The translations under genes were made by a program, and so were the position numbers. Of a DNA stretch of 40,435 nt, positions 3,791 to 28,800 are shown in pieces; position 1 is the first letter of the stretch; every line of letters starts with the position of its first letter. Source of the stretch: a virus. The DNA lies in IMG/VR virus record IMGVR_UViG_3300046674_000357, positions 1-40,435 of that record, one strand, 5' to 3'. The notes under the pieces were generated by a model. It did no database searches. It saw only the letters and a list, made by a program, of their open reading frames with translations, and was not told where the DNA came from.

Positions 3791-4033
3791 TCAGGAAACT
3801 TCGGGCTGCGGGTCGAGGAGCTCAGCAGTCAGGAGCCGCATGTCGTGGCGGCACTTGGCGCAGATGATCCGGACGATCCCGTTATTCGAGTAGCACTGGG
3901 CGAACTCGAAGACCTTGAGGTAGTTCACGCAAGTCTCGGTGTCGTCCCGTGCCGTGACCTTGTAGTACAGGTACGGCTGGAAGACGGGCGGGTCCGGGTC
4001 CGGCTCGGGGGTCGGCTCGGGTTCTGTGGTCAT
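3791..4033 (-). CDS. Small Cys-containing protein next to the tail fibre gene
   Basis: An 80-residue unknown. The start at 4033 gives a 4-bp ATGA overlap with the fibre gene; an upstream in-frame ATG at 4051 would overlap further and lacks support. The N-terminus is an acidic Glu-Pro/Asp-Pro repeat. The C-terminal half has a CAKC motif plus two more cysteines (TCVNYL, AQCYSN), which could bind one metal ion. It is translationally coupled to the fibre gene, so a virion or fibre-accessory role is possible but unproven. Confidence 0.65.
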   Translation of the reverse strand: MTTEPEPTPEPDPDPPVFQPYLYYKVTARDDTETCVNYLKVFEFAQCYSNNGIVRIICAKCRHDMRLLTAELLDPQPEVS

Positions 4034-4767
4034 TGTCCGATCGCCATCCAATGCACTCCGGTTGTGGTGGTATTTGCGCGGGTCAGCCAGATCGTGAGTC
4101 CGGTCGCGTCCACGGCGGACACGCCGACCCCGAGCACGGTGGTGCCGGGAACCGAGGTGACGGCGGTGGCCTGGGCTGTGAACGTGGTGCCGGCCAGGGC
4201 GAACCCGCCCACGGTCACCGATGTCGGGGTGTTCGCGGCGGACGGGGTGATGTTCACCGTCCCGAAGGCGAAATTCCCCGCGTTGAGGAGTCCACCGACG
4301 TTCATGACGTCCGCCGTGACTGTGACTTCGGAGTCGGCGGTCGTAAGCCCCGTCGCGGAGTACATATTGATCATCGCGGCGGAGTTTTCCGGGGCGTTGC
4401 CGGAGGAGATCAGCAGCTCGAACAGGGTCTCGTCGATCTGGCTGAACCCCACCCGGCCCTCATCCTGGGTCTGGGTGACGCCGCGGACGCCGAAGCACAT
4501 GTCGCCGGCGGCGAGGGCGGCGTAGTACTCGGCCGCGTCCCGGGTGTCGTACACGGCCACGGCAGCCATGCCCCGGTCGTCCCAGTCCGCGGCCATCTCC
4601 GCCAGGGTGTTGCCGTCGTCGTCAGTGAGCGTCAGCCCGCCCGTGTTGAACGCCGTGTGCCCGGCCCGTTTCGAGGCGCGAAGCTCCCGGATTTCCCGGC
4701 GGAGCTGGGCGACCTGGCGGGCGAGCGTCGTGATGTCGGGTGGTAGCTGATCGAGCTGTCGGGCCAT
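4030..4767 (-). CDS. Tail fibre / minor tail protein with receptor-binding-like C-terminus
   Basis: A 245-residue protein with an N-terminal coiled coil (LARQVAQLRREIRELRASK, about residues 16-34), a middle region of short beta-rich segments, and a C-terminal beta-rich domain containing NITPSAANTPTSVTV. This resembles the C-terminal modules of trimeric fibre proteins of actinobacteriophages. The gene is the last large tail gene and follows two other distal tail genes by one-base or four-base overlaps. Binding to host envelope is inferred from layout; no receptor can be named. Confidence 0.75.
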   Translation of the reverse strand: MARQLDQLPPDITTLARQVAQLRREIRELRASKRAGHTAFNTGGLTLTDDDGNTLAEMAADWDDRGMAAVAVYDTRDAAEYYAALAAGDMCFGVRGVTQTQDEGRVGFSQIDETLFELLISSGNAPENSAAMINMYSATGLTTADSEVTVTADVMNVGGLLNAGNFAFGTVNITPSAANTPTSVTVGGFALAGTTFTAQATAVTSVPGTTVLGVGVSAVDATGLTIWLTRANTTTTGVHWMAIGQ

Positions 4768-25118: not shown

Positions 25119-26219
25119 CTACAAGATGCCTTTGCCTGCGGTCTCTTCCCAGCGCTGAATCTTGCGGATGTACGTCTCGAAGACCGGGCTGCCGGGGGCG
25201 TGCCCGGACTGCTTGCGGGTCACGTCGGGGCGCTTCCCGGCCTTGGTGCTGGCGGTGATGAACCCGGATCGCATCGAGTGGCCGGTGAGCTTCACGTCGA
25301 CGCCGGCGCGGGCCGCAGACCGGGTGATGGCGAGGCGTACCGCGTTCGGGGACATGCGGGTCGTACCGAGGTGGCCCCACTGGTCGACGGGGCGGAACGC
25401 GGGCCCCTGCTCCAGGGCGGCGGCCTCTTTCCAGGCGAGCCAGGCCCGGACGGCGCAGAGCGCGGGGTCGTCGGCGTAGTCGACTTCGACGTCGCGGTCC
25501 GGTCGGCCCTTGACGCCGGGGACGTGAACCTCGAGGCCGCCTTCGACCAGCTTGATATCTGCGACGTCGAGGGCGGAGACCTCGGCGGTGCGGCCGGCGA
25601 TGCCGAACTCCATCAGGGCCATGGCGCGGTTGCGGAGGACGGCAAGCTCGGGCAGCTCGTAGACCGCGCGCCGGCGGCGGGATCCGGGCGTGCGGGGGAC
25701 GACCCTGTCGGCGGAAACGAGCTGCTGCAGGTGTCCGGGGGTGGCCGGTGCGGCTTGCCCGCGGCCACGTGCCTGCTTCTCTCGGTCCTTGCCGAGAGAC
25801 TTGAGGACCTTGCGGGCGGCTTCGGTCGCTTCCTTCGGCACCTGGACGCCGCGGTCGCGTGCCTCAACGGTCACGCCGGTGATGCGGCGGTCGATGGTGG
25901 TGAGGGCGGCTTCCTTGACGTCGTCGAGCCAGACGACGAACCCGACCATGGTTCCTTTGGTGACGGCGGTCGGCGGCAGGAGCGTTCCGGTGTTCTGGGC
26001 GAGCCAGGTGTGGAACTCGGTCCAGAGCGCCCAGTCTCGCGCGTACCCGTCCTTGGTCTTCTTCGGGCGGATGTCTTTGAGGTGGTCTTCGGCTGCCTGC
26101 TCCATCGCGGCGAGGACGGCAAGGGTCGCGGGGTCGTAGCGGTCGACCTCTCCCCCGCCGCTCTCGACAACGATCTCGGCTTCGACGACGTCCACGTGTT
26201 CGAGCTCAGTCCCGCTCAT
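25119..26219 (-). CDS. int: Tyrosine recombinase / integrase
   Basis: A 366-residue tyrosine recombinase. The N-terminal SAM-like DNA-binding part spans about residues 35-145. In the catalytic domain I can see R210 (GIAGRTAEVSALD), H314 and R317 (LTGHSMRSGF), H340 (KQSGHAPGS) and the nucleophile Y350 (VFETYIRK). All core residues are in place. AGGGAGG lies seven bases before the ATG. The enzyme could integrate the circle into the chromosome or resolve plasmid multimers; a palindromic candidate site lies just upstream at 26285-26304. No tRNA-like attP was noticed next to the gene. Confidence 0.9.
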   Translation of the reverse strand: MSGTELEHVDVVEAEIVVESGGGEVDRYDPATLAVLAAMEQAAEDHLKDIRPKKTKDGYARDWALWTEFHTWLAQNTGTLLPPTAVTKGTMVGFVVWLDDVKEAALTTIDRRITGVTVEARDRGVQVPKEATEAARKVLKSLGKDREKQARGRGQAAPATPGHLQQLVSADRVVPRTPGSRRRRAVYELPELAVLRNRAMALMEFGIAGRTAEVSALDVADIKLVEGGLEVHVPGVKGRPDRDVEVDYADDPALCAVRAWLAWKEAAALEQGPAFRPVDQWGHLGTTRMSPNAVRLAITRSAARAGVDVKLTGHSMRSGFITASTKAGKRPDVTRKQSGHAPGSPVFETYIRKIQRWEETAGKGIL

Positions 26220-26698: not shown

Positions 26699-26716
26699 AC
26701 CGTTACGGCTACGCGT
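26699..26716 (+). repeat. CCGTTACGG element 1
   Basis: ACCGTTACGGCTACGCGT. It recurs with one mismatch at 26740-26757, 41 bp downstream, and in inverted form at 27216-27233. The core CCGTTACGG is an inverted repeat (CCGT-N-ACGG). Confidence 0.75.
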
Positions 26717-26739
26717 GACAGAGTCGCCCTCCGTCCCTT

Positions 26740-26757
26740 ACCGTTACGGCTATGCGT
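26740..26757 (+). repeat. CCGTTACGG element 2, overlapping a start codon
   Basis: ACCGTTACGGCTATGCGT; 17 of 18 bases match element 1. The ATG of the 26752 gene lies inside it, so a protein bound here would block both transcription and initiation. Confidence 0.75.
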
Positions 26758-27225
26758 AGAGAAGAGTGTGCGATGTGCACCGGCCCGTTCGGCGGACCGG
26801 CCTACCTCGTCAACGCCACCCGGTGGAAGGGGCAGAGCCGATGGGGCACCCGGGAACCGATCTGCGAGCCCTGTTACATCCGCGGTCGGACCGACCCCGA
26901 GACCAACACCGCGCCGGCCGACTCCGAACGGACCGGCGACCGCTTCCAGTGGCACCCCTGGCCCACCGGCCGCGGGGCACTGCTGCCGCCAACCCCGTGC
27001 GAGGGGTGCGGGCTGCTGATCGTCCGACACGGCGACCCGCTACTGAAGCGCGTCACGTGCTCGGCTTCCTGCCTGACGTCTCTAACCCGTACCCGTAACG
27101 GTAATCAGGGGAGCGGGCCGTGCGAGACGTGCGGCAAGGCGATCACGACCGGGCGGGCGGACTCCCGGTACTGCGGTTCCGCCTGCCGACAGAAGGCGTA
27201 CCGGGCAAGACAACGTCACGCGTAG
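26752..27225 (+). CDS. Cys-rich zinc-ribbon protein bracketed by inverted repeats
   Basis: A 157-residue protein with four Cys pairs or clusters: CAMC (6-9), CEPC (about 38-41), CEGC (about 83-86) followed by CSASC, and CETC followed by CGSAC near the end (PCETCGKAITTGRADSRYCG). That suggests two or three zinc ribbons, usual for nucleic-acid-binding proteins. The first ATG keeps C6, which supports it over the ATG at 26773, although there is no Shine-Dalgarno; leaderless translation is possible. Start and stop codons both lie in copies of the CCGTTACGG element, which suggests autoregulation or gene-cassette-like ends. Confidence 0.75.
   Translation: MRREECAMCTGPFGGPAYLVNATRWKGQSRWGTREPICEPCYIRGRTDPETNTAPADSERTGDRFQWHPWPTGRGALLPPTPCEGCGLLIVRHGDPLLKRVTCSASCLTSLTRTRNGNQGSGPCETCGKAITTGRADSRYCGSACRQKAYRARQRHA
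27093..27103 (-). repeat. CCGTTACGG element 3, inside the zinc-ribbon gene
   Basis: CCGTAACGGTA, the reverse of TACCGTTACGG. It lies in the coding sequence at about residue 115. Confidence 0.6.
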
Positions 27226-27233
27226 CCGTAACG
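27216..27233 (-). repeat. CCGTTACGG element 4, inverted, overlapping a stop codon
   Basis: TCACGCGTAGCCGTAACG; its reverse complement CGTTACGGCTACGCGTGA is identical to bases 26701-26718 of element 1. The TAG stop of the zinc-ribbon gene lies inside. Confidence 0.75.
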
Positions 27234-27248
27234 CCCGAAAATGACGAC

Positions 27249-27277
27249 GGCCCCCTCCCGCTGCCAGGGAGGGGGCC
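27249..27277. terminator. Terminator after the zinc-ribbon gene
   Basis: A perfect 11-bp stem GGCCCCCTCCC (27249-27259) with GGGAGGGGGCC (27267-27277) and a 7-base loop. No long T-run follows, as often in Streptomyces. Confidence 0.75.
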
Positions 27278-27376
27278 GCGCGCTGTCCGCCTCGCATCGC
27301 GGCGGGACCGGACGGGCGGAGCGTGATCCGGTTACTTCCGGCGGATTCCTATAGGACAGGGGCCGGGACACGCAGA

Positions 27377-27403: not shown

Positions 27404-27677
27404 CCGTGTGCCGGGCTGCGATCCGGAGCGCCGACAGTAGTACGTGCTTCTGACATATGACCACGGGCAAGCGCCCCCGCCGTTGTTCGCAGCCGACGGG
27501 GAGCGCCGGGGCCGGGACCGGGCGGCGTGATGAGACCGTCCGGGCTGGGCCTGCGCCTCGCCACGGCCTACCTCCAGGGCGGGAAGGGCACGGGGTCCGG
27601 CGGGCGCCTGCGGTAAGGGGGAACCGCGGCGGACGCCCGCCTGCCCGTGTGCCGGCTGCGATCGGCGCATCGCCACA
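27404..27677. other. Gene-free stretch upstream of the par repeats
   Basis: No convincing gene is seen; the open frames here lack start signals and sit in GC-rich non-coding sequence. The par promoter may lie at its right end. Confidence 0.4.
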
Positions 27678-27785
27678 GTACTGCATGCAGTACCTACGGA
27701 ACGCAGCACCCACGGGGAACCTGCATGCCGTATCTGCTGGCTTCCGTAATGCCGTGGCCACTGCATTACGGCATGCCGTATCTGC
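27678..27785. repeat. Palindrome and repeat cluster upstream of parA (candidate parS/operator)
   Basis: The cluster has a 16-bp perfect palindrome GTACTGCATGCAGTAC (27678-27693), an inverted repeat CCGTAATGC / GCATTACGG (27744-27752, 27763-27771), a 14-bp palindrome TACGGCATGCCGTA (27767-27780), and a 15-bp direct repeat GCATGCCGTATCTGC at 27723 and 27771. The first 20 bases from 27681 recur (17/20) after the operon at 28836. This is the layout of a centromere or partition operator. Confidence 0.75.
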
Positions 27786-27856
27786 GTGCACACTGCGTTG
27801 CTGAATTGCTGGGGTCAGTGCCTACGTGATCACTGCATCCCGGTACCGTCGCGGCC

Positions 27857-28471
27857 ATGCTGCGAATCGCAATCGTTCAACTGAAACCAGGGACGGGGAA
27901 GACGACGTCGGCCGTATGGCTGGCCTACGCCTTCCACCGCCGGGGCCTGGCCGTGGGCCTGGCCGACGCCGACAAGGGCGCCTCGGCGCTGGAGTGGTCC
28001 GACCAGGCGGGCGGGTTCCCGTTCTCCGTGGCCGGCCTGCCCGTGAAGGACTTCCACCGCCGGGCCGACGACTTCGCCCCGAAGGCGGACGTCATCATCG
28101 GCGACATCCCGCAGATCGAGGACCACGCGGGCATCGCCCGTTCCGCGATGAAGTGGGCCGACGTCCGGCTGATCCCGGTGGCGCCCACGGGGATCGAGCT
28201 GGACCGCATGGCACCGATCGCCGACGAGCTCGAGGACATGGAGACCGTGCTCCGGGTTGGGTCGACGTCGCACGTTCTGCTGAACCGAGTGGTGTCGGGT
28301 GCCGCGTCCGGGCCGGCCGCTCGCCGGGCTCTGACCCGTAGCGGGTACGACGTGCTGACGACGACGGTGCCGCGGCTGGAAGTCTTCGCGAACTCCTTTG
28401 GTGCGGAGCCTGTGGCGAACTCGGCCTACGACCAGCTGGCGACGGAGCTCCTTGAGAGGCGGCCGGTATGA
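27857..28471 (+). CDS. parA: ParA-family partition ATPase
   Basis: A 204-residue ParA/MinD-type ATPase. The deviant Walker A KPGTGKTT (residues 10-17) has the signature first lysine; DADKGASAL gives the A' region and VIIGDIP the Walker B region. The absence of an N-terminal HTH makes it a small ParA (type Ib-like). It would move the plasmid by binding nucleoid and its partner protein. The stop overlaps the next start (ATGA). Repeats upstream probably serve as operator or centromere. Confidence 0.88.
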   Translation: MLRIAIVQLKPGTGKTTSAVWLAYAFHRRGLAVGLADADKGASALEWSDQAGGFPFSVAGLPVKDFHRRADDFAPKADVIIGDIPQIEDHAGIARSAMKWADVRLIPVAPTGIELDRMAPIADELEDMETVLRVGSTSHVLLNRVVSGAASGPAARRALTRSGYDVLTTTVPRLEVFANSFGAEPVANSAYDQLATELLERRPV

Positions 28472-28800
28472 GCGGCGAGAAGGCTGAGGAACGGCTGACC
28501 CGGGCGCTGACGGGAGGCCGGAACCGGGACAAGGAGCGGGGCGAGGGGGCGCCTGTTCGCCGGCCGACGGCCACGCGGACGAAGCCGGTGCGGATGACGG
28601 TCGACATGGCACCGTCGCTGCACCGCCGTCTGAAGAACTGGACGACCTACGCATCCGAGCAGCTGGACGTCGCCGACGTTCCGGCCGCCGAGGTGGTGCG
28701 GTCGCTGGTCGATCTGCTGACGAACGTGCAGCGCTCGCCCGAGGTTCGACAGCTGCTGGTCGCCGCGGTCCTCGAGGAGCTCCGCGAGCAGAGGCAGTAG
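28468..28800 (+). CDS. Small ParB-like centromere-binding protein
   Basis: A 110-residue protein coupled to parA by an ATGA overlap. A basic, disordered N-terminus precedes KPVRMTVDMAPSLHRRLKNW and VPAAEVVRSLVDLL, which look like the strand plus two helices of a ribbon-helix-helix domain, as in small centromere-binding partners of type Ib partition systems. The likely target is the repeat cluster on either side of the operon. The name parB is not given because I see no canonical ParB domain. Confidence 0.75.
   Translation: MSGEKAEERLTRALTGGRNRDKERGEGAPVRRPTATRTKPVRMTVDMAPSLHRRLKNWTTYASEQLDVADVPAAEVVRSLVDLLTNVQRSPEVRQLLVAAVLEELREQRQ

Follow-up and report, generated by a model that had tools for sequence, protein, structure and literature searches.

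The DNA analysed here (hereafter the window) is the whole 40,435-nucleotide stretch of the viral record IMGVR_UViG_3300046674_000357, a Streptomyces phage with genes for a terminase, a DnaB-type helicase, a tyrosine integrase and a ParA-like protein. The locus under study comprises a small zinc-ribbon gene and an array of short repeated sites, with the following features in and around it:

25119-26219, - strand, tyrosine integrase gene, adjoining the cassette
26699-26716, + strand, outer left site E1, ACCGTTACGGCTACGCGT
26740-26757, + strand, start-codon site E2, ACCGTTACGGCTATGCGT, with the ATG at 26752 inside
26752-27225, + strand, zinc-ribbon ORF of 157 aa, with several CxxC zinc-binding motifs in about three modules
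27085-27102, - strand, internal inverted site within the ORF, ACCGTTACGGGTACGGGT, 16/18 matching positions
27215-27235, - strand, right outer inverted site, covering the stop codon TAG at 27223-27225
27248-27278, no strand assigned, strong hairpin with a 12-13 bp stem, just past the cassette
27857-28800, + strand, ParA-like gene and, after it, a small gene

Repeats rich in GCATGC/CTGCAT at ~27670-27850, ahead of the ParA-like gene, could be a partition site.

The 18-bp site ACCGTTACGGCTAYGCGT is present at 26699 (+), 26740 (+), 27085 (-, weaker) and 27215-27235 (-), and no further copy was detected in the whole 40,435-bp record when up to 3 mismatches were allowed. The original prediction had described two direct copies before and across the ATG, an inverted copy across the stop TAG and a gene thereby bracketed by inverted repeats, and all of these are found: the arms at 26701-26719 and 27215-27233 form a 19-bp inverted repeat with 100% complementarity, and the right copy (27218-27235, -) matches the site at 16 of 18 positions overall, with an exact 16-bp core that spans the TAG. 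The copy within the gene, which had been described as limited to the core, is indeed present, but it is longer than the core and inverted. The zinc-ribbon ORF is the sole gene between the 19-bp repeats. No match to a sigma-70-type promoter was found for it, and the hairpin past the cassette is terminator-like by consensus on the - strand only.

No catalytic domain was recognised in the 157-aa protein, no Pfam or NCBIfam model scored above its cut-off, and no transposase-family match was obtained. A weak match (E = 1e-5, residues 36-153) was obtained with PHROG_1271 (HNH endonucleases), on a region that takes in the C-terminal zinc motifs. The AlphaFold model, which is confident for residues 1-71 only, gave no significant fold match. 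The dN/dS ratio between the window gene and its nearest relative (locus L023) is about 0.45.

Relatives of the protein found here, complete or partial, number about 25, and those of full length come from Streptomyces only; tblastn searches located relatives in 11 Streptomyces plasmids, where they are mostly unannotated. Occurrence of the gene family is patchy (10 of 393 Streptomyces genomes), and the neighbourhoods are mostly unrelated, in settings that include plasmids, chromosomes and prophages. The layout of gene plus sites is repeated in ~20 loci, the sites being 18 bp or longer. A site at the E2 position lies over the start codon in nearly all relatives, nearly all complete copies have one inverted site within the ORF, and one to three inverted sites are usually found on the 3' side; the number of sites differs among copies. 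L023, L115, L015, L016 and L028 likewise have their stop codon in the right site or next to it. The E1-E2 direct pair is 40-41 bp apart in the window, L023, L063, L115 and L116, which are considered as the window subfamily, and 31 bp apart in the other relatives, which have an additional direct site 60 bp past the internal inverted site. When genomes were searched for the same element around other genes, as the original prediction had proposed, the strict paired-element pattern was matched solely at this gene family among the 393 Streptomyces genomes. The original prediction would have been refuted by a wide occurrence of the elements at unrelated positions, and this search did not refute it. 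Matches to the 16-bp site in viral contigs (L005-L013) were isolated and had no relative of the gene, and were taken as chance occurrences. The observation is thus real, and broader than first described.

In S. anulatus plasmids (L119, 2707-2910; L018, 3296-4945), extra right-end sites occur in runs, 50-70 bp apart, beside the gene. At 1500-2650 of L067, which is the same locus as L058, one truncated and one complete cassette lie in a head-to-tail tandem, with a single CCGTTACGG common to both copies at the junction and no flanking DNA between them, a hint that this core itself is perhaps a boundary.

The sites within the ORF are constrained as DNA. Within the internal inverted site, the Arg codon at the core is CGT in 17 of 17 relatives, and the other invariant Arg columns are mostly CGG or CGC; at the internal direct site of the non-window subfamily, the codons GTT, GCT, CGT, GAT and TCT are kept. 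These codons are rare in GC-rich Streptomyces genes, and their freezing at the internal sites shows that these positions hold a nucleic-acid signal besides the protein sequence. Covariation of the outer sites was assessed by permutation within subfamilies: over 17 bp, left and right sites are more alike within a copy than between copies (p = 0.0002; p = 0.005 without L017 and L028). The left and right ends of transposons likewise resemble each other within a copy. For the pair formed by the start-codon site and the internal site, covariation is marginal and not convincing (p about 0.05).

Evidence for mobility comes from relatives with longer ends. In L028 (S. griseus NCTC13033), a 730-bp insertion (3875-4604) without transposase is delimited by ~120-bp inverted repeats, TGTCCGG...CCGGACA, and a 5-bp duplication, GAAGG, directly flanks both ends. 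When the flanks were joined with one GAAGG, they aligned unbroken to the S. anulatus plasmid L018 (83% over 120 bp); on this alignment, L018 is demonstrably an empty site for the L028 cassette and L028 an insertion. S. anulatus plasmids L117-L120, examined as empty sites for L018 itself, allowed no clean call because the neighbouring genes are paralogous and rearranged. A decayed cassette in the Streptomyces sp. WAC08241 chromosome (L029, 3841-4537) has both TGTCCGG-type ends, with flanks that agree at 4 of 5 bases (TCCCG/TCCCC); it interrupts a repeat of a CRISPR array with a 60-61-bp period. One TGTCCGG end is retained in L017, L024, L027 and L059, and most copies outside these six loci have no such ends.

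The same type of end is also found around another gene. A 493-bp element of an S. uncialis plasmid (L072, 5000-5492; NZ_CP109292.1) is bounded by ~50-bp inverted repeats of the TGTCCGG type, is flanked by a perfect CCCTG duplication, and carries an unrelated 115-aa gene of unannotated function, without CGTTACGG sites. The outer TGTCCGG ends therefore serve more than one cargo, which points to a trans-acting transposase yet to be found. No transposase was detected between TGTCCGG ends in the 393 Streptomyces genomes and the plasmid collection, and two extra genome matches considered as an autonomous partner sit in seemingly ordinary genes. Partial ends of the L072 kind were seen in L073-L076. 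Near 1500-1570 of L078, a ~70-bp palindrome, in which two partial TGTCCGG-type ends face each other as in a miniature inverted-repeat element, adjoins a transposase gene of another kind.

All five members of the window subfamily are located in phage-like segments. A tyrosine integrase neighbours the window and L023 copies and a serine integrase that of L115, and the L063 and L116 copies lie near tape-measure genes. By eye, the similarity between the window and L023 appears not to extend past the outer site on either side. At the window copy, no TGTCCGG ends were visible, no target duplication was seen (its exact borders being uncertain), and no empty-site relative was found via the ParA and integrase neighbours: the search with ParA brought up nothing closely related, and L112-L114, which are relatives by their integrase and in which the cassette is absent, share no flanking genes near it. 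Mobility of the window copy thus rests on the evidence from the family. The suggestion that the repeats mark the boundary of a mobile cassette is well supported for the family, by mostly unrelated neighbours, TGTCCGG repeats and target duplications in some members, an empty site and covariation of the outer sites, but does not extend in the same way to the window copy itself.

Taken together, we consider that the segment 26699-27235 probably belongs to a family of mobile cassettes that are specific to Streptomyces and carry one gene each. The best reading is that this family resembles mobile insertion cassettes in which the sole protein is a zinc-ribbon, putative DNA binder. A protein that reads the site array is the best-supported mechanism, and the encoded zinc protein, which probably binds the array, is its simplest candidate, since the sites travel with the gene and no paired sites were found elsewhere. 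If the protein binds, the stretch CGTTAYGGNTNNGCGTG is expected to be covered. With the start codon lying inside E2, occupancy of this site would block initiation, and the protein would then repress its own gene; occupancy of the outer sites may mark the ends of the element. A trans-acting transposase would move complete members, in the manner of mobile insertion cassettes. The window copy would be a phage-adapted version bounded by the 19-bp inverted repeat, and is possibly now fixed as a phage moron. That the sites are operators for the gene's own product, an option of the original prediction, is plausible, given that they accompany the gene and are conserved as DNA even inside the ORF, and is compatible with mobility too.

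The most serious competing explanation, which we regard as possible though clearly the less probable one, is that of an autoregulated phage moron whose sites are operators only, engaged in cooperative or looping repression, so that their symmetry would not reflect transposition ends. Spread of the gene would then be due to the mosaicism of phages and plasmids, a TGTCCGG cassette having captured one clade. The phage-like setting of 5/5 window-subfamily members, the window copy without target duplication, the L072 element with TGTCCGG ends around other cargo and no array sites, and the variable number of sites among copies are all consistent with it. Against it, covariation within a copy is seen for the outer sites and is unconvincing for the internal pairs, 3'-end operators of which one encloses a stop codon are unusual, and the flanks appear, by eye, to lose their similarity precisely where the outer sites lie. 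An alternative of another kind makes the zinc-ribbon protein the mobility protein itself, which would bind end and internal sites and drive or direct recombination at CCGTTACGG boundaries; we consider it improbable. If true, the family would be one of mobile elements with a new kind of small recombination factor, distinct from DDE transposases and from both tyrosine and serine recombinases.

It is more doubtful still that the inverted sites act as an RNA element, pairing in the mRNA in order to tie its ends together, hide the start codon and control translation or stability. When the transcript was folded, the window RNA folded better than shuffled sequences (z = -2.98), with one stem between the 5' outer and 3' sites and another between the start-codon and internal sites, but such a fold is expected from any inverted repeat, the start-codon/internal pair covaries only marginally, and direct copies are as well conserved as inverted ones. 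The stem tying the mRNA ends that had been put forward is thus possible but weakly supported. Chance clustering of a GC-rich motif can be given almost no weight. It could appeal to the bare 9-bp core, for which the window shows no clear enrichment when one mismatch is allowed (17 matches vs 11 expected). However, for the 18-bp site, with up to 2 mismatches counted, 3 exact matches and 1 two-mismatch match were observed, vs a mean of 0.02 and never more than 1 when the window was simulated 300 times with a first-order Markov model, and other loci show the same layout and rare codons. Chance is already refuted by the frozen codons and the simulations.

Seen as a whole, these are cassettes without a transposase whose protein family is new and whose placement of sites within the gene is unusual. 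Searches of open-licence papers returned nothing matching such an element in Streptomyces, which is weak evidence of novelty. The family adds largely unannotated one-gene cassettes to Streptomyces plasmids, chromosomes and temperate phages, and the DNA-conserved sites inside its sole gene make it simple to test if so tiny a protein, a putative DNA binder, governs or assists the movement of the gene that encodes it.

Several known systems can be compared with these cassettes. The junction core of integron gene cassettes is GTTRRRY; the window core GTTACGG does not fit it, and an integron-type attC reading was therefore dropped. Ends of the Tn7, IS21 and TniA types are characterized by TGT...ACA termini, a 5-bp duplication and several spaced subterminal repeats. 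Complete family members resemble them in all three respects, but transposase, ATPase and targeting gene are all absent. A phage moron stands alone between phage modules, as one gene equipped with a promoter and a terminator of its own. The window subfamily is likewise a single gene between phage modules, patchy among phages, but its site array brackets and enters the gene, and relatives also occur on plasmids and on chromosomes outside recognised prophages. The start-associated sequences of Cluster K mycobacteriophages are 13 bp long, precede many genes per genome, occupy the ribosome-binding-site position and contain AGGAG (PMC3203893). They share with the present array a repeated non-coding site near the start codon in an actinophage; here, in contrast, a single gene is concerned, sites also lie within and at the end of the gene, and there is no Shine-Dalgarno core. 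Mobile insertion cassettes are transposase-less elements such as MIC231 of Bacillus cereus and mic-qnrD (PMC3913671). Like them, the family described here is bounded by inverted repeats, carries a passenger gene and no transposase, has a 5-bp target duplication at L028 (and, around other cargo, at L072) and is presumably moved in trans. It differs from them in that no partner insertion sequence was found and the window copy shows the inverted repeat alone, and in that the passenger is a DNA-binding-type zinc protein whose gene itself holds conserved copies of the end site.
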